Made by a program: the position numbers and the translations under genes. The notes beneath the pieces were generated by a model, which searched no databases, was not told the DNA's origin, and worked only from the letters and a program-made list of their open reading frames with translations. Positions 4,524 through 64,000 of a DNA stretch of 64,000 bases are shown here, piece after piece. The stretch is from Cereibacter ovatus (GTDB lineage: Bacteria; Pseudomonadota; Alphaproteobacteria; Rhodobacterales; Rhodobacteraceae). Where the stretch lies: contig NZ_OAOQ01000015.1 of assembly GCF_900207575.1 (NCBI RefSeq), positions 1 to 64,000 on the forward strand, written 5' to 3'. The first letter of the stretch is position 1. Each line of letters starts with the position of its first letter.

Positions 4524-4557
4524 AGGGCCCGGTTTTTCACCACCACTCGGCCCGCGC

Positions 4558-4732
4558 TGGTTCCTGTCGTTCGTGACAGGCGAAGAGGGAATGCCCAAGC
4601 GGCAGCCGCCCCCGCGACCGTGACCGGAAAGGTCGCCCGATCCACTGGCCCTGCAAAGGCCGGGAAGGGGGGCGCCCGCTGGGCCATCCGGCCCTGAATC
4701 CGCAAGCCGGGAGACCTGCCAGCGCCGAGACT
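4558..4732 (+). ncRNA. Cobalamin (AdoCbl) riboswitch
   Basis: The conserved blocks of the cobalamin aptamer occur in order on the + strand: GAAGAGGGAATGCC near 4582-4595; the C-rich core GCCGCCCCCGCGACCGTGA near 4607-4625; the CCACTGGCC...GGGAAGG arm near 4642-4667; and the B12 box AGCCGGGAGACCTGCC at 4704-4720. It lies in the leader of the DUF1636-cobW-cobN operon, about 110 bp before the first start codon. It should repress that operon when adenosylcobalamin is high. The exact P1 ends are approximate. Confidence 0.95.
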
Positions 4733-4843
4733 GACGGGCGGACGGGGTGTTCCGCGACCTGTGGACCGGGGTGCTTCCTGTGCAGCACCTTATTCGCCGG
4801 ACCGCCTGCGCGCGCCCCATGCCCCTGTATGAAGGGATGGCCG

Positions 4844-14610: not shown

Positions 14611-15332
14611 CCGGCTTTGTCTCGTTCGTCTCGTCGGGTCCGGGCGACCCCGAACTTCTGACCCTGAAGGCGGTGGATCGGCTGGCCCGCGCCGATGCGG
14701 TGCTGTTTGACGACCTGTCCGCGGGGCCGATCCTTGCCCATGCGCGCGAAGGGGCGGATCTGGTTGGCGTGGGCAAGCGCGCCGGCCGCGCCTCTCCGAA
14801 GCAGGATCATGTCAGCCGGCTGCTAGTGGATTACGCGCAGACCGGCGCGCGGGTGGTGCGGCTGAAATCGGGCGATTCGGGCCTGTTCGGCCGGCTCGAG
14901 GAAGAAATCACCGCCCTGTCCGCGGCCGGGATCGGCTATGAGATCATCCCCGGCGTGCCATCGGCCTGTGCGGCGGCGGCGGCGGCGGGTATCCCGCTGA
15001 CACGCCGGCTGACCGCGCGGCGGGTGCAGTTCCTGACCGGCGCCGATGTGACGGGCGGTCTGCCCGATCAGAACATGGCGGCGCTGGCCGATCCGGCGGC
15101 GACCACCGTGGTCTTCATGGGCAAGCGCACCTTTCCGGCGCTGGCCGGGGCGCTGCTGGCTGCGGGCCTGCCTGGCGACACGCCGGCGCTGCTGGCCGAG
15201 GGGATCTCGACCCCGGCCCAGCGGATCTGGCGCGGCACCATCGCCACGCTGGTCGACGCGCTTGGGAACGCCAGCGATGCGCCGGCGCTGATCCTTTATG
15301 GTCCCTTGGCCGAGGATGCCCGCGATGCATGA
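14607..15332 (+). CDS. cobA: Uroporphyrinogen-III C-methyltransferase CobA
   Basis: A 241-residue SUMT that methylates uroporphyrinogen III at C-2 and C-7 to make precorrin-2, the entry step to corrins and sirohaem. It has [18 protein letters not shown] at the N-terminus, [22 protein letters not shown] and [18 protein letters not shown]. It is a stand-alone methylase, without the CysG dehydrogenase half. It overlaps cobM by ATGA, and its stop lies inside the start of cobF. Confidence 0.95.
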
Positions 15333-16068
15333 GTTGATCCTGATCGGCATCGGCACCGGCAATCCCGATCACCTGACGCGGCAGGGCGAGGCCGCCATGC
15401 AACAGGCCGATCTGATCCTTGTGCCGCGCAAGGGGCCGGACAAGGCCGATCTGGCCGATCTGCGGCGGGCGATCTGCGCCCGCGTCGCCCCCGCTGTGCC
15501 GGTGGCCGAGTTCGACCTGCCGGTGCGCGATGCCGCCAACCCCGATTACCGTCATGGGGTGGATGACTGGCATGACGCCATCGCCCTCGCCTGGGCCGCG
15601 GCGGCGGGCAGTGCCAGCCGCGTGGCGCTGCTGGTCTGGGGCGATCCGTCGCTTTACGATTCCACCCTGCGGATCGCCGGCCGGCTGTCGCCCCCGCCGC
15701 GCCTGCGGGTGGTGCCGGGCATCACCGCCATTCAGGCGCTGTGCGCGGCCCATGCCATCGCGCTGAACGAGATCGGCGCGCCGGTCGTCATCACCACCGG
15801 CCGGCGTCTGCGCGACGAAGGCTGGCCGCCGGGCGCCGACCGGATCGTGGTCATGCTGGACGGCGACTGCGCCTTTCGCACGCTGGACCCGCAGGGGCTG
15901 CGGATCTGGTGGGGCGCCTATGTCGGAATGACCGAGGAACTGCTGATTTCGGGCGATCTGGCCGAGGCCGGTCCGCGGATCGTGACCCTGCGCGCCGAGG
16001 CGCGGGCGCGTCATGGCTGGATCATGGACATTTACCTGCTGGATCGCCGCCCTACGGCCGAAGGCTGA
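15325..16068 (+). CDS. cobF: Precorrin-6A synthase (deacetylating) CobF
   Basis: A 247-residue methylase that methylates C-1 of precorrin-5 with loss of the acetyl group, giving precorrin-6A. It is diagnostic for the aerobic pathway. It has [18 protein letters not shown] at the N-terminus, VWGDPSLYDSTLRIA, and VVPGITAIQALCAAHAI. The ATG at 15325 is preferred over 15316 because GAGG at 15312-15315 is then nine bases away. It is the last gene of the riboswitch operon; a (GGCCCC)15 tract begins 44 bp after its stop. Confidence 0.95.
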   Translation: MHELILIGIGTGNPDHLTRQGEAAMQQADLILVPRKGPDKADLADLRRAICARVAPAVPVAEFDLPVRDAANPDYRHGVDDWHDAIALAWAAAAGSASRVALLVWGDPSLYDSTLRIAGRLSPPPRLRVVPGITAIQALCAAHAIALNEIGAPVVITTGRRLRDEGWPPGADRIVVMLDGDCAFRTLDPQGLRIWWGAYVGMTEELLISGDLAEAGPRIVTLRAEARARHGWIMDIYLLDRRPTAEG

Positions 16069-16107
16069 CAGGGCGGTTGACCGGCGAGAGGTGCGGGGCG
16101 CATCTTT

Positions 16108-16201
16108 CCCCGGCCCCGGCCCCGGCCCCGGCCCCGGCCCCGGCCCCGGCCCCGGCCCCGGCCCCGGCCCCGGCCCCGGCCCCGGCCCCGGCCCCGGCCC
16201 C
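16108..16201. repeat. Perfect (GGCCCC)15 hexanucleotide tract
   Basis: Four C residues are followed by fifteen uninterrupted GGCCCC units (16112-16201). The minus strand reads GGGGCC repeated, a strong G-quadruplex former. The + strand transcript would be a C-rich structure just after cobF. All frames through it are open (Gly-Pro, Ala-Pro and Arg-Gly dipeptide runs), but none has a convincing start or homologue, so I do not call it coding. Confidence 0.97.
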
Positions 16202-16317
16202 TGATTGACGGCCAGCGCCGGGCCATCGAACGGCCCGGCGACCTTGGTCATGGCGGCCCGGCTGTGCCATGGGCACCCGCGGCCACTGGTCCGACGGGCG
16301 TGACCCTTTCAGTAGCC

Positions 16318-16388
16318 GGCCTGCAATTCCGTGCCGACTTTTGCTGCGTGAAAGCTGGCCTGCAATTCCGCGCCGACTTTTGATGCGC
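16318..16388. repeat. Two 32-bp near-identical direct repeats
   Basis: Units at 16318-16349 and 16357-16388 share GGCCTGCAATTCC, then GCCGACTTTTG and TGCG, with two substitutions and a period of 39 bp. Spaced terminal repeats of this kind occur at IS21-type ends, but no istA or istB gene lies nearby, so the origin is unknown. Confidence 0.75.
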
Positions 16389-16481
16389 GTATCGCAGGCC
16401 AGAGGCACGGATGGATCGAAAGTTGCATGGCCCCCGCATCGACAGCCACAGCACCCGCGCCGCGCGGGTCGGAGATACACC

Positions 16482-16586
16482 ATGTTCCCCATTCCGCGCC
16501 TGACCTACGAGATGCTGGCCACCATGATGCCCGCGCCCATCCTGACCTTCTGGTATCATCCCGCACCCATCGGCCTGTTCGGCTGA
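16482..16586 (+). CDS. Possible 34-residue small protein, unrecognised
   Basis: The ATG at 16482 is preceded by GGAG at 16471-16474 with seven-base spacing, a good ribosome binding site. The product is 34 residues long and largely hydrophobic in the middle (LATMMPAPILTFWYHPAPIG). I do not recognise it. It lies alone in the 540-bp stretch between cobF and aroB, downstream of the repeats. Codon use is unremarkable. It may equally be chance coding. Confidence 0.35.
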   Translation: MFPIPRLTYEMLATMMPAPILTFWYHPAPIGLFG

Positions 16587-16607
16587 GGCAAGGGACGGAT
16601 CGGCGCC

Positions 16608-17720
16608 TTAGCGCAGCGCCAATGCCTCGGACAGCACTGTGCGCACCGCGTCGGGCGGCACGTCTTCGGCCACGAAGGCCGATCCGATGCCGCGGGCCAG
16701 AATGAAGCGCAACCGGCCGTCCATCACCTTCTTGTCCTGCGCCATCAGCGCCAAAAGGCCCTCGGCATCGGGGAGATCGCCTGGAATGTCGCGCAGATCC
16801 ACCTTCATGCCCATCGCGCGCAGATGGGCGCGCAGCCGGCTGGGCGCCTCTTGCGCGCACAGGCCCATGCGTTGCGACAGCTCGAACGCCAGCGCACAGC
16901 CGATGGCCACCCCCTCGCCATGCAGCAGGCGGTCGGAATAGCCCGTGGCCTTTTCCAGCGCGTGACAGAAGGTGTGGCCAAGGTTCAGCAGCGCGCGGTC
17001 GCCTTCTTCGGTCTCGTCGCGGGCCACGATCTCGGCCTTCATCTCGACCGAGCGGCGCACCGCGCGCTGGCGGGCCTCGGGGTCATGTGCAAGCCGGGGG
17101 CCTGCGTCTTCAAGCCAGTCATAGAAGGCGGCATCGCCCAGAAGGCCGTATTTCACCACCTCGCCATAGCCGGCAAGGAAATCGCGGGCGGGCAGCGTGT
17201 CCAGCACGTCGATATCGGCCAGAACCAGCGACGGCTGATGGAAGGCGCCGACAAGGTTCTTGCCCTGCGCGGTGTTGATGCCGGTCTTGCCGCCCACAGA
17301 ACTGTCGACCTGCGCCAGAAGCGTGGTCGGCACCTGAACGAAGCGCACGCCACGGCGCAGGACGGCCGCGGCAAAGCCTGCCAGATCGCCGATCACGCCG
17401 CCGCCCAGGGCCACCACCATGTCGCGACGCTCGACCTTCTGTTCCAGCAGCCATTCGACGGCACGCGCGAACTGCGGCCAGCCCTTGGTCGCCTCGCCCG
17501 CCGGCAGCGCCAGCGCCGAGGACGCGATGCCCGCAGCCGAAAGCGCCTGCTGGAACGGTGCCAGATGCAGGGCGGCCACCGTTTCGTCGGTCAGGATCGC
17601 CACCTGCGGCCGGCGCAGCAGCGGCGCCATGTGATCGCCCGCCCGGGCGATCAGGCCCTGCCCGATCCGCACCTCATAGGCGCGTTCGCCCAGTTCGACC
17701 CGCACGCAATCCATCGTCAT
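16608..17720 (-). CDS. aroB: 3-dehydroquinate synthase AroB
   Basis: A 370-residue NAD+- and metal-dependent enzyme that cyclises DAHP to 3-dehydroquinate, the second step of the shikimate pathway. It contains the NAD-binding region VALGGGVIGDLAGFAAAV, followed by PTTLLAQVDSSVGGKTGIN and NLVGAFHQP, and the metal ligands in GYGEVVKYG and NLGHTFCHALE. The ATG at 17720 overlaps the aroK stop as ATGA, giving the common aroK-aroB operon. Confidence 0.96.
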   Translation of the reverse strand: MTMDCVRVELGERAYEVRIGQGLIARAGDHMAPLLRRPQVAILTDETVAALHLAPFQQALSAAGIASSALALPAGEATKGWPQFARAVEWLLEQKVERRDMVVALGGGVIGDLAGFAAAVLRRGVRFVQVPTTLLAQVDSSVGGKTGINTAQGKNLVGAFHQPSLVLADIDVLDTLPARDFLAGYGEVVKYGLLGDAAFYDWLEDAGPRLAHDPEARQRAVRRSVEMKAEIVARDETEEGDRALLNLGHTFCHALEKATGYSDRLLHGEGVAIGCALAFELSQRMGLCAQEAPSRLRAHLRAMGMKVDLRDIPGDLPDAEGLLALMAQDKKVMDGRLRFILARGIGSAFVAEDVPPDAVRTVLSEALALR

Positions 17721-59945: not shown

Positions 59946-60571
59946 GCCCCATTCCGGACGACGCCTGCCCCACCCGACGCGAGGCAACCCGCCGCGACAC
60001 CGAACGCACCATTCTGGCTGCGGTGGAAAAAGTCTATGCCAAGTAGGGCTTTGCCGGCGCCACCATGCAGATGATCGCGGCGACGGCCGGGCTGCCCAAG
60101 GCCGATCTGCACCATGACTTCCCCACGAAAGAGACGCTCTATCGCCGGGTGGTGCAGGATATCTTCAAGATCTGGCTGCATGCGGCCGATGTCTTTGACA
60201 AAGCCGATTGCCCCGCCGAGGGCATCGGAGCCTATCTTGGCGGCAAGTTGAAAATCTCGGGCCGGCATCGGTTCGGCGCGAAGGTCTAGGCATCCGAGGG
60301 GATGCATGGCGCGCCGGTCATTCCGGATCATCTGGAAACCGCGCTGCGCGACTGGATCGACAGCCTGACAACGGCTCCCCTCTTTGGATCTCCGACGGAC
60401 GGATACGGTCGGTCGATCCACATGATCTGCTGACGCTACGATCCGGCCCCACGCCGATTTCGCTCATCAGATCGAGACGCTGAACGATGGCCGCCCGCTG
60501 TTGGATGCCGACCGGGGGTGGCCATCCCCGACGTCAAGGCGATCATCCTGCGCGGGATCGGCGCGCAGTGA
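59946..60571 (+). pseudogene. Decayed RutR-like TetR regulator
   Basis: TetR-family sequence with several lesions: TERTILAAVEKVYAK, a TAG, then GFAGATMQMIAATAGLPKA, HHDFPTKETLYRRVV, GRHRFGAKV, another TAG, SEGMHGAPVIPDHLETALRD, a frame change near 60400, and finally IPDVKAIILRGIGAQ before TGA at 60569-60571. The match to the intact regulator at 61165 is clear in the helix-turn-helix and the central GAP block. It is a dead relative of that gene. Confidence 0.85.
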
Positions 60572-61164
60572 CGGCACCCCGTTGCACCACCCTGGCGCCG
60601 GGCCAGGCTGTGGGCGCCATCGGCGGGCCAGGACCGCCGGCGGCAAGGGGGATCGGGTGCAGCGCAGTCCACGCGGCCAACGGATCGGGCCAAAGCTGCG
60701 CCCGCCGGCCCGGCCCACCCCATGCGCCCTGCCATCTGCCCCCAGCACCGCGTCGCCGGGGCCAATCGCCTCGCCCGGGCGGAGGCCCAGGGGCCTTGCG
60801 CAACGTGCCGATGCAAAAGCAGGTCGATGTAAAAGCCGCCATAGCTGTTGCATCGGCACGACAAGGGGCGAGGCCATCCCGGCGGTGTCATTGCCTTCGG
60901 CCACATCGGCAGTCGGTGTGCGGCCCGGAACGAACGCGTTGAAGCTGGCGGCCGTGGCTGGATCGTCCCCGGTTGCGGAAAGGCTGGGTTGGGGCCGCGG
61001 TTGCGTGGGATCTGGGAAACCGCATCCCATCCTGCCAGCGAACCGCAGAGGCACGGACACGGCACGCGGCTGGCCGGTTTGACCATCCGGTCAGCTTTGG
61101 TTTAGCATCACCTCCCGGCAGCACTCAGGTTGCCGCCGTTGCCTGCCAGAAAGGGCCGCCCCGC
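60572..61164. other. Gene-poor stretch before rutR, with a RutR-like box
   Basis: No intact gene was recognised. Frames are long on both strands but lack starts and family signatures. The minus strand may hold eroded enzyme sequence that I cannot assign. The useful feature is TTGACCATCCGGTCAG at 61079-61094, which matches the RutR consensus except at two positions and lies about 70 bp before the rutR start. Confidence 0.5.
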
Positions 61165-61770
61165 ATGAGCCAGCACCGGCAAACCCGGATCCAGCGCCGC
61201 AACTCGGAGGCGATCCTTGAAGCCGCGCTTGAGGTGTTTTCGCAGCAGGGATTCCGCGGCGCCACACTCGATCAGATCGCCGAAGTGGCGGGGCTGTCAA
61301 AGCCGAACCTGCTGTATTACTTCCCCTCGAAAGAGGCGATCCATGTCGCGGTGCTGTCGCGGCTGCTGGACGTGTGGCTTGATCCGTTGCGGGCGATGAA
61401 CCCGGATGGCGAGCCGGTGGCGGAAATTCTGGGCTATGTGCGGCGCAAGCTGGAACTGTCGCGCGATTTCCCGCGCGAGAGCCGGCTGTTTGCCAACGAG
61501 ATCCTGCAAGGTGCGCCGCGGATGCGTGCGGTGATCGAGGGCGAGTTGCGCCCGCTGGTGATGGACAAGGCCGCCGTGTTGACCCGCTGGATGGACGAGG
61601 GCCGGATCGCGCGGCTGCATCCGGTGCATCTGATCTTCTCGATCTGGGCGCTGACCCAGCATTATGCCGATTTCGACGTTCAGGTGCGCGCGGTCCTGGA
61701 GGGGGAAGATCCGTATCCGGCAGCGGCGGGCTATCTGGAGGTGTTGTTCCGCAAGCTTCTGGCGGTCTGA
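61165..61770 (+). CDS. rutR: RutR-like TetR-family regulator of pyrimidine catabolism
   Basis: A 201-residue regulator. The HTH at about 15-60 includes GATLDQIAEVAGLSKPNLLYYF, and the TetR_C-type ligand domain includes RLFANEILQGAPRM, LIFSIWALTQHYADFDVQV and the EVLFRKLL end, which are RutR hallmarks. RutR binds uracil and thymine and regulates pyrimidine use. A RutR-like box lies 70 bp upstream, and two more lie before the amidohydrolase operon. It is intact, unlike the nearby copy at 59946. Confidence 0.88.
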   Translation: MSQHRQTRIQRRNSEAILEAALEVFSQQGFRGATLDQIAEVAGLSKPNLLYYFPSKEAIHVAVLSRLLDVWLDPLRAMNPDGEPVAEILGYVRRKLELSRDFPRESRLFANEILQGAPRMRAVIEGELRPLVMDKAAVLTRWMDEGRIARLHPVHLIFSIWALTQHYADFDVQVRAVLEGEDPYPAAAGYLEVLFRKLLAV

Positions 61771-61783
61771 GGGGAGGACGGCG

Positions 61784-61834
61784 CCGGGGGCTTCACACCC
61801 CCGGACCCCCGTGGGATATTTGGGCCAGAATGAA
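61784..61834 (+). repeat. 3' stem-loop/tail repeat, copy C
   Basis: Fourteen bases after the rutR stop: a 7-bp stem CCGGGGG/CCCCCGG (61784-61804), then a tail with GGGATATTTGGGCCAG and AATGAAA. Same design and orientation relative to its gene as the elements at 36447 and 58495. Confidence 0.75.
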
Positions 61835-62094
61835 AAGCGGCCGGGGAGATTGGCGAGGCCTTCCGGAATCCGGGCCTTGACGGCGGGGAACAGGCAGTTT
61901 CCGGGCCGTATGAAGGCCGACCAAAATCAAGCGGGACCGCATCTTTGGCAGATCGCCAGCCCGCCGTCGCATGGAGAGCCTGCGAACCAACGTGAGCGGT
62001 GCGCGGGCCAGGTGGTTTCGGCGTGATGTGGCTTCGGGCATGCCGTCCTGCAATCGAGTTTGCGGGAGATATTTGGGAAACGAGCACCTGATGG

Positions 62095-62680
62095 AGGGGG
62101 GTGTCGCGGATCGAGGTTCATTGCGAGGGGCGGCGTTGGCCTGATGACCTCAAGGCGCGGATTGTTGCCGCGAGCTTTCAGCCCGGCGCGCGGGTCAGCG
62201 ATGATGCGGCAAAATTCGGGCTGATTGCCCGGCAGCTTTCGGTCTGCGCGTAAGGGGTGATTGATGCGGCGCCGGCATTCGTGCCGCTGGAGATCGAGCC
62301 ACTGGCAGATCCTTCAGTCGGGGCGCTGGCAGGCAGGGGCGTCGATCAAGGTCGAGATTTGCTGCGGAGTTTTGCATGTTGTGCCAGACTGTAGCCCGGA
62401 GTTGGCGACGGCCTTGAGGACGGTGCTGTGGTCGTTCCGGATCAGGCCGTCCGGATCGTGATCGCGACGAAGCCTGCGGACTTCCGCAAGGGGCGCGACG
62501 GGCTGCCCGTCATGGCGCATGCCGAGTTGGGCTTTGCGCCGCACGCGGGCGGGGGGGGCAAGCGTGGCGGCAGGATCGAGGTTCTGTTCTGGGGCGGCAG
62601 CGGGATCGTGATGATCGACGGGGTGTCGGCGCCCAGCCCGGTTGTCAGCGCCGCGACGCTCGCGGCGTTTTCCCCTTGAA
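62095..62680 (+). mobile_element. Decayed IS66-family element (TnpA and TnpB parts)
   Basis: Bases 62101-62252 encode SRIEVHCEGRRRWPDDLKAR and SFQPGARVSDDAAK, the TnpA-type protein, ending early. From 62428 the frame VPDQAVRIVIATKPADFRKG, then GRIEVLFWGGSGIVM is the TnpB protein. TnpC is absent and the frames are broken in between. I could not find terminal repeats. It lies between rutR and preA. Confidence 0.8.
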
Positions 62681-62964
62681 CCCCGGTATCATGAAATCCG
62701 CAGCCACCCCAAAGCGGCCGCCACAGGTATTCAGGGTGAAATTGACGGACACCGCGGGGTAGACTTCGGCACGGCTTGGTTGCTGGGGCGTCTTGACCCT
62801 GCGATCTTCGATCGTTCGGCGTTCAAGAAGGCCCCCGGGAGCGGACGGGATATCGGCTGTCTCGGACGGCGCGGAAGTCCTGCGGCGGTTTTTCGGGTCA
62901 GTTCTGCGGCGGGACAAAACTTCCGCCATCCGCATGCGATGCTCTGACGATTGAGCATACAAAA
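62681..62964. other. Intergenic stretch, no gene recognised
   Basis: No family signature in any frame. The minus-strand frame containing SVNFTLNTCGGRFGVAADF could be leftover mobile-element sequence, but I cannot identify it. Confidence 0.45.
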
Positions 62965-62969
62965 TCAGA

Positions 62970-62997
62970 CGGCTGCCGAGAGAACTCTCGGCAGCCG
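62970..62997 (-). terminator. Intrinsic terminator of preA
   Basis: CGGCTGCCGAGAG (62970-62982) and CTCTCGGCAGCCG (62985-62997) form a perfect 13-bp stem. On the minus strand it is followed by TCTGATTTTGT, 60 bp downstream of the preA stop. Confidence 0.9.
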
Positions 62998-63056
62998 TGG
63001 CAGGTGTATCCCGAAATGCGCAATGAGCCAGGAGATTGGCCGGGCGCTTTTCGGGG

Positions 63057-64000
63057 TTATTCGGCCGCGTCGCGCACCGCGGGATTGTTGGGGTGCGAGA
63101 GCCAGTTGGCGTAGTCGCCTACGGGTTTGCCGGTGCGCGGGTCGGGGGTGCCTTTGGGCAGTTCGCGCATGGTGATGCAGGTTTCCACCGGGCAGACATC
63201 GACGCAGAGGTTGCAGGCCACGCAGTCCTCATCCTTCACGGTGAAGGTGCGGTCGGGCGACATGGCGATGGCCTGATGGCTGGTGTCTTCGCAGGCGGCG
63301 TAGCAGCGGCCGCATTTGATGCAGAGATCCTGATCGATCTGGGCCTTGGTGATGTAATTCAGGTTCAGATACTGCCAGTCGGTGACATTGGGGATGGCGC
63401 GGCCGACGATGTCGGCGGTCGAGGCAAAGCCCTTGGCGTCCATGTAATCCGACAGGCCCGAGATCATCTCTTGCACGATCCTGAAGCCGTAGGTCATGGC
63501 GGCGGTGCAGACCTGCACATTGCCCGCGCCAAGCAGCATGAACTCGACCGCGTCGCGCCAGGTGGTGACGCCACCGATGCCCGAGATCGGCAAGCCGTGG
63601 GTGGCCGGGTTGCGCGCGATTTCGGCCACCATGTTCAGCGCGATGGGTTTGACCGCCGGGCCGCAGTAGCCGCCGTGGGTGCCTTTGCCGTCGATGGTGG
63701 GCATCGGTGCGAAGGCGTCGATGTCGACCCCGGTGATCGAGTTGATGGTGTTGATCAGGCTGACCGCATCGGCGCCGCCGCGTCTGGCGGCCTCGGCCGG
63801 TTTGCGGATGTCGGTGACGTTGGGGGTCAGTTTCACGATGCAGGGCATGCGGCTGTGCTTTTTCACCCAGGCCGTGACCATCTGGATATATTCCGGCACC
63901 TGCCCCACCGCCGAGCCCATGCCGCGTTCGGCCATGCCATGCGGGCAGCCGAAGTTGAGTTCCACACCGTCGGCGCCGGTATCCTCGACATGGGCCAGGA
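63057..64000 (-). CDS. preA: NAD-dependent dihydropyrimidine dehydrogenase subunit PreA (partial)
   Basis: The C-terminal 314 or so residues of PreA; the 5' end lies beyond the right edge. The FMN-binding dihydroorotate-dehydrogenase-like barrel shows VELNFGCPHGMAERGMG, CIVKLTPNVTDI and SGIGGVTTWRDAVEF. Two [4Fe-4S] ferredoxin motifs close the protein: CIKCGRCYAAC and CVACNLCVDVCP. With PreT it reduces uracil or thymine to the dihydro form, the first step of the pathway whose later enzymes lie at 56984-59815. Confidence 0.95.
   Translation of the reverse strand, partial: LAHVEDTGADGVELNFGCPHGMAERGMGSAVGQVPEYIQMVTAWVKKHSRMPCIVKLTPNVTDIRKPAEAARRGGADAVSLINTINSITGVDIDAFAPMPTIDGKGTHGGYCGPAVKPIALNMVAEIARNPATHGLPISGIGGVTTWRDAVEFMLLGAGNVQVCTAAMTYGFRIVQEMISGLSDYMDAKGFASTADIVGRAIPNVTDWQYLNLNYITKAQIDQDLCIKCGRCYAACEDTSHQAIAMSPDRTFTVKDEDCVACNLCVDVCPVETCITMRELPKGTPDPRTGKPVGDYANWLSHPNNPAVRDAAE

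Follow-up and report, generated by a model that had tools for sequence, protein, structure and literature searches.

The hexamer GGGGCC/GGCCCC is the unit of the human C9orf72 repeat, which expands in disease. The tract that we analyse here, at the end of a cob operon in Cereibacter ovatus, shares this unit, and equal in vitro structures are thus to be expected of the two. There is, however, no common ancestry, and unlike the human repeat the tract has 15 units only, does not lie in an intron and gives no sign of any product. Among bacterial repeats, the GGGNATC-type heptamers of Xanthomonas and Nostoc are, according to the accessible part of their description, mostly non-coding and near ORFs, with no function identified (PMC4692102). 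As in the genus studied here, such repeats are found there largely between the same genes in related species while their length and sequence vary (PMC4692102). In Xanthomonas and Nostoc, however, the part of the source available has one unit used genome-wide, with four copies preferred, whereas here each sampled locus has its own unit in 8-20 copies, mostly perfect; instead of one unit at many loci we find a single GGCCCC locus and other arrays that differ in unit. Moreover, the same portion of text reports that the G-rich repeats prefer the non-coding strand upstream and the coding strand downstream of ORFs (PMC4692102), and the downstream preference is the opposite of what the cobF tract displays.

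Two further systems deserve comparison. As far as the available part of PMC2651432 goes, the simple-sequence contingency loci of the Haemophilus type resemble our tract in being slippage-prone pure tandem arrays, but the tract lies outside any reading frame or recognised promoter and its unit is a hexamer. In Paracoccus denitrificans, a member of the Paracoccaceae, a promoter quadruplex in G-rich intergenic DNA affects nasT and responds to ligands, as stated in the accessible part of PMC5123632; that motif is a non-repetitive 21-base sequence 150 nt upstream that was tested with ligands, whereas the tract is a 94-bp pure array 3' of its gene. More generally, a tree-of-life survey, in the part available, finds bacterial and archaeal genomes on average not enriched in short tandem repeats (PMC12699852). 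Among the matches listed from the open-licence literature there was no report of natural bacterial GGGGCC tracts, of a class of long 6-/7-mer arrays, or of such repeats in Rhodobacter sphaeroides, and term counts in the accessible text of PMC4060949 and PMC6397444 gave no mention of such repeats.

The tract lies in the window, by which we mean the whole stretch of 64,000 nucleotides that was analysed (features in Table 1). Tandem Repeats Finder returns a period-6 array of 94 bp with 15.7 copies, 100% matches and 0 indels, and its letters read as CCCC followed by exactly 15 GGCCCC units (16112-16201, + strand), which bears out the perfect (GGCCCC)15 at the end of the cob operon given in the preliminary description. 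The distance of 44 bp from the cobF stop, also given there, holds as the offset to the first full GGCCCC; the gap from the stop to the start of the tract is 39 bases. Chance is excluded as the origin of the tract, because the longest period-6 run reached only 17-20 bp in ten second-order Markov genomes of 3,806,065 bases each, the length being that of the full genome and the composition that of part of it. The runner-up period-6 run in the real genome, in a sample of 477,798 bases with N rows excluded, is 21 bp. If a microsatellite is taken to be a series of pure head-to-tail copies of a short unit, longer than chance allows, the tract is one. A coding tract was also considered, because the unit puts no stop codon into any of the six frames. 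This reading was dropped: the tract sits past the end of cobF, and those ORFs that cross it overlap cobF itself, either in a different frame or on the opposite strand.

Table 1. Features around the GGCCCC tract, in coordinates of the window.
Feature	Coordinates	Strand	Remarks
Cobalamin riboswitch	4541-4737		On the upstream side of the tract
Tetrapyrrole methylase gene, called cobF	15298-16068	+	PF00590, E 1.4e-29; last of the cob gene run
9-bp RNA hairpin between cobF stop and tract	16087-16107	+	-9.3 kcal/mol, z -0.79; no better than shuffles
Perfect period-6 array, CCCC + (GGCCCC)15	16108-16201	+	Tandem Repeats Finder and letters; G-rich strand is the minus strand
GC-rich hairpin past the tract, 9-bp perfect inner stem	16210-16249	+	-28.1 kcal/mol, z -2.64
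Two copies of CTGCAATTCCGYGCCGACTTTTG, spacing 39 bp	16321-16382	+	Only 2 exact sites genome-wide
Conserved 34-aa ORF (MFPIPRLTYEMLATMMPAPILTFWYHPAPIGLFG)	16482-16586	+	65-68% identity over 31 aa in congeners
aroB (3-dehydroquinate synthase)	16608-17720	-	PF01761/PF24621; convergent with the cob operon

How rare are such tracts? In the C. ovatus genome, four or more GGCCCC units occur at one site only (12 overlapping matches, all at that site), and a dispersed repeat family was accordingly dropped as an explanation. None of the four other congeners has four units or more, which makes this genome the only one of five in the genus. At least five units are found in 1 of 394 genomes of the family, again this one (0/393 others), and at least four units followed by a non-G base in 2 of 190 genomes of the class, this one included. 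A public set of 84,980 species, with one genome each, holds 37 stretches with at least six units followed by a non-G base; this count is a lower bound, since the pattern needs a non-G after six units and can miss tracts ending mid-unit, and the set may lack records very near the C. ovatus genome. With 94 bp our tract is longer than all 37, the runners-up having 86 bp (L062), where a Pro-Ala reading frame is predicted, and 82 bp (L056, positions 2327-2408). The tract of L056, from a metagenome bin of Rhodobacterales, is pure GGCCCC and falls outside the called ORFs; it lies 25 bp 5' of a predicted gene, and its flanks look by eye unrelated to ours. By a mechanical ORF call that uses frame-wise G+C, as for the arrays of C. 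ovatus and of one congener (G004) discussed below, 27 of the 37 public tracts lie inside predicted reading frames, 16 of them as Pro-Ala repeats, and 10 lie outside. Thus the rarity in bacteria that had been claimed holds for this length, while shorter GGCCCC tracts occur in other phyla, 27 of 37 of them inside predicted ORFs. Among 2.9 million viral contigs (IMG/VR), the pattern used for the public set, at least six units and then a non-G base, is present in four stretches (L102-L105).

The gene upstream is a tetrapyrrole methylase gene that is probably cobF; similar genes on aligned plasmid records carry the annotation 'cobF: precorrin-6A synthase', none of the plasmid records among the matches listed being from this genus. 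It has matches at 76-77% identity in all four other congeners, and the run upstream consists of four tetrapyrrole methylases and a CbiG-type protein. On the far side, a shikimate kinase gene follows in the same direction as aroB, opposite to the cob genes. The spacer between these operons differs, as judged by eye, from the window's in three of the congeners (G001, G002 and G004), G002 and G004 being alike, and in the fourth (G003) some 200 bp separate cobF from aroB. Downstream of cobF, arrays of at least 21 bp are absent from all four (L014-L017). The tract-bearing spacer does not look conserved across the genus.

Other elements of the spacer are of interest in their own right. The 34-aa ORF, which starts 280 bp downstream of the tract, is found in G001, G002 and G004, each time 3' of cobF, with no match in G003 and, near aroB in 28 other genera, no convincing hit by tblastn; it looks like a genus-specific small protein. 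A GGAG-like element stands shortly 5' of its start. The CTGCAATTCCGYGCCGACTTTTG pair consists of near-identical 23-base elements at 16321-16343 and 16360-16382, which match none of the plasmids searched and might once have bounded a mobile element that is now lost. For want of a plasmid match and of any further exact copy in the genome, the idea that the spacer stems from an insertion sequence was dropped.

Could the tract act on transcription or replication, as the preliminary description had proposed in speaking of a roadblock or terminator? On such a reading it would halt polymerase between the convergent cob and aroB operons, either through a quadruplex on the minus strand, which is the template, or through structure of the C-rich strand or its RNA. 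The position, so close past the stop and between convergent operons, speaks for it. The minus strand is made of GGGG runs parted by CC and thus has at least four G-runs of three or more on one strand. This G-rich strand serves as template when cob is transcribed, which would put the C-rich GGCCCC into the cob RNA; GGGGCC RNA would arise only from transcription in the aroB direction. On DNA, quadruplexes form from both the G-rich and the C-rich strands of (GGGGCC)8/(GGCCCC)8, according to a title cited in the available part of PMC7015867, which lends the idea support on either strand. The nasT quadruplex, as described in the accessible part of PMC5123632, makes effects of such DNA in related bacteria possible.

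The public tracts bear on the same question. Five of the ten that lie outside ORFs (L043, L048, L049, L058 and L068) are 11-25 bp past a called gene end, with GGCCCC on the sense strand as here, which also speaks for the proposal; L043 and L068 are in addition faced, at 74 and 143 bp, by a convergent gene, relative to which the orientation is reversed. The others are one tract 130 bp past a gene end (L040), one between divergent genes (L054), one 25 bp before a start (L056), and two with no gene neighbour assigned (L061, L064). The numbers are small and depend on mechanical ORF calls. The sense-strand bias of GGCCCC at gene ends may reflect avoidance of G-rich RNA.

Several results weigh against this proposal. 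The congeners do without an array downstream of cobF, and the predicted fold of 16060-16270 is no more stable than those of its shuffles (z 0.38, with 129 of 200 shuffles as good). A search of 15900-16700 for U-tailed terminators, that is, a GC-rich stem followed by a U-run, found 0, and an intrinsic terminator at the tract was dropped as a candidate. Just downstream stands a separate hairpin (16210-16249) that is equalled by only 3 of 200 shuffles; going by the predicted fold it is a candidate terminator without a U-tract, and would be a better candidate than the tract. Finally, three of the six long arrays that we found in C. ovatus and G004 (CGGTGAG, GTTCATG and GAGCCGA) have no G-runs of three, while GGCCCC, GCAAGG and GGCTTGG do yield runs of at least three, and quadruplex capacity as a common property of the arrays was dropped on these grounds. 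Thus the roadblock or terminator is left unsupported by the fold, by the terminator search and by the presence of a better candidate, and we regard a polymerase-halting role as unlikely.

These six arrays place the tract in a larger class. In C. ovatus (1,150,906 non-N letters from the window and 80 further stretches of the same genome, with 4 kb, 60001-64000, counted twice) there are three perfect arrays of at least 24 bp with units of 3-15 bases. Besides the tract, these are (CGGTGAG)14.6, of 102 bp, at the start of contig C21 (C21:1-102, L126), which begins 47 bp past the stop of a metallophosphoesterase gene, and (GTTCATG)14.9, of 104 bp (C29:4214-4317, L130), the first unit of which holds the stop codon of an hlyD-family gene. 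G004 (372,000 letters) has (GCAAGG)20.3 of 122 bp, (GAGCCGA)18.3 of 128 bp, (GGCTTGG)8.1 of 57 bp and one array of 28 bp. By contrast with these long arrays, the longest in G003 (400,000 letters) is 28 bp, with none of at least 50 bp; the same limits, none of at least 50 bp and a longest of 28 bp, hold for one Tritonibacter and two Paracoccus plasmid replicons (550,000 letters), and no array of at least 24 bp is present around aroB in 28 other genera (112,557 letters). These samples cover about 30% of C. ovatus and 8-9% of G004 and G003, and the outgroup letters are mostly plasmid rather than chromosome. The class thus comprises arrays of 57-128 bp in part of the genus, with its own unit at each locus; a genus-wide spread is unsupported, since 400 kb of G003 contain no long array. 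Nor are long arrays peculiar to Cereibacter: four others, of 66-167 bp, are present at the 37 public loci (L033, L049, L060 and L062; 258,979 letters), which had been picked for their GGCCCC tract.

Four of the six long arrays of C. ovatus and G004 begin at most 50 bp past a gene end or overlap the stop, the genes being cobF, the metallophosphoesterase gene, the hlyD-type gene (stop in the first unit) and a UvrD-like helicase gene. The fifth (GCAAGG, G004) occupies the spacer between chrA and rpsD. There the longest chrA frame includes the array, which it would translate as a Leu-Ala repeat. We took as the chrA start an ATG about 50 bp inside the array on the chrA side, given that the Pfam domain begins only past this ATG, and the intergenic status of the array depends on this choice. 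The sixth precedes an aminotransferase gene and lies about 110 bp past the apparent stop, as seen by eye, of the gene before it.

The same arrays bear on whether the tract might be an artefact of assembly or copy number, that is, much shorter, longer or interrupted in the cell. The assembly is a draft of 62 contigs, and contig C21 starts inside an array, where the assembler probably broke. Our tract, however, sits inside an 80 kb contig, comparable arrays, mostly perfect, stand at corresponding sites in the assemblies of two other genomes (7 and 260 contigs), and shorter GGCCCC tracts occur in 37 public stretches. An artefact, which had been raised as a possibility early on, is therefore disfavoured where the existence of the tract is concerned, its exact length being less certain, and we hold it to be highly unlikely.

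How do such arrays change? For three long arrays of G004 we compared their sites across all five genomes of the genus. In G002, where the flanks are 93-96% identical to those of G004, an array is present at all three sites, with lengths that differ. At the site between the UvrD-like helicase gene and an AsnC-type gene, GAGCCGA x18.3 in G004 (L186, 15366-15493) stands against GAGCCGG x12.4 in G002 (L229, 1393-1479); the period is 7 in both, and the unit has been switched throughout the array. Between chrA and rpsD the unit is unchanged, GCAAGG x20.3 against x18. At the aminotransferase site G004 has GGCTTGG x8.1 and G002 an array of the GGGACTT type, 90+25 bp long, in which one unit is interrupted. 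Thus two of the three shared sites have a changed unit in nearly all copies. The remaining genomes (C. ovatus, G001 and G003) have no array of at least 21 bp at nine loci matching G004 arrays; at three of the nine (L235, L236 and L241) a different gene, as judged by eye, lies across the spacer. Similarly, the four other congeners lack an array at their metallophosphoesterase locus, where C. ovatus has the C21 array. From these alignments the arrays of this class appear to arise in single lineages, to keep their site while varying in length, and in two of the three cases to change the unit of nearly all copies.

A long pure array is the kind that mutates quickly, and with a small conserved ORF 280 bp downstream one may ask whether the tract is a contingency locus, at which a change of copy number switches a gene on or off by phase variation. 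But it lies outside genes, past the cobF stop and in no called ORF, and its unit length is a multiple of three. A search for sigma-70-like sites found no promoter of this kind at 15900-16700. The genes beside the other arrays share no common theme and, in particular, no surface theme. We judge phase variation at this locus to be extremely unlikely.

Our analysis instead suggests that the tract, which fills part of the spacer from the last cob gene to the small ORF, is probably a hexanucleotide microsatellite that has expanded recently and is specific to this lineage, and that it belongs to the class of long, mostly perfect 6-/7-mer arrays. Such arrays would grow, shrink and homogenise through replication slippage, in repeated rounds of shortening and renewed growth, or through unequal exchange; either process would yield changes of length as well as of unit. 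How could arrays of this size persist? MutS-type mismatch repair handles small loops best. Units of 6-7 bases would give loops beyond the usual range of MutS, which may escape correction even where mutS is present. Indeed mutS is found above the curated cut-off and without inner stops in all five genomes of the genus, and loss of MutS as a cause of expansion was dropped for this reason. The arrays may survive where they do because the first bases past a stop codon would tolerate a change of length.

A dedicated function is not needed to account for the tract. Apart from the limited spread of the class and the limits of the samples, given above, three points nevertheless count against the microsatellite reading: the mutability of the cobF tract is carried over from other loci rather than from a comparison within the species; the sharing of array sites by G002 and G004 could also mean a retained function; and no shorter homologue of the cobF tract came to light. 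Slippage in copy number, as first suggested for this DNA, is supported indirectly by the three comparable arrays that differ in length, two of them also in unit, between G004 and G002, and for the cobF tract itself it is an extrapolation. A bolder proposal, which we find rather doubtful, is that one branch of the genus holds hypermutable 6-7-mer arrays at fixed intergenic sites, the units of which switch between sisters while period and site stay, and that these could tune 3'-end formation or gene spacing.

The tract is striking in its length. In our best reading it arose recently, as one of a class of long microsatellites with hexamer or heptamer units in part of the genus, and has no demonstrated role. 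A bacterium in which several pure arrays reach about 100 bp, one of them built from the C9orf72 unit, is a simple system in which to measure how arrays are born, grow and homogenise, and the arrays are usable as length markers for the typing of isolates. If G004 is Rhodobacter sphaeroides 2.4.1, related arrays sit in a well-studied laboratory species. And should the arrays indeed prove hypermutable, the cobF tract would be a natural bacterial counterpart of C9orf72, in which the expansion of GGCCCC could be watched in a bacterial cell.
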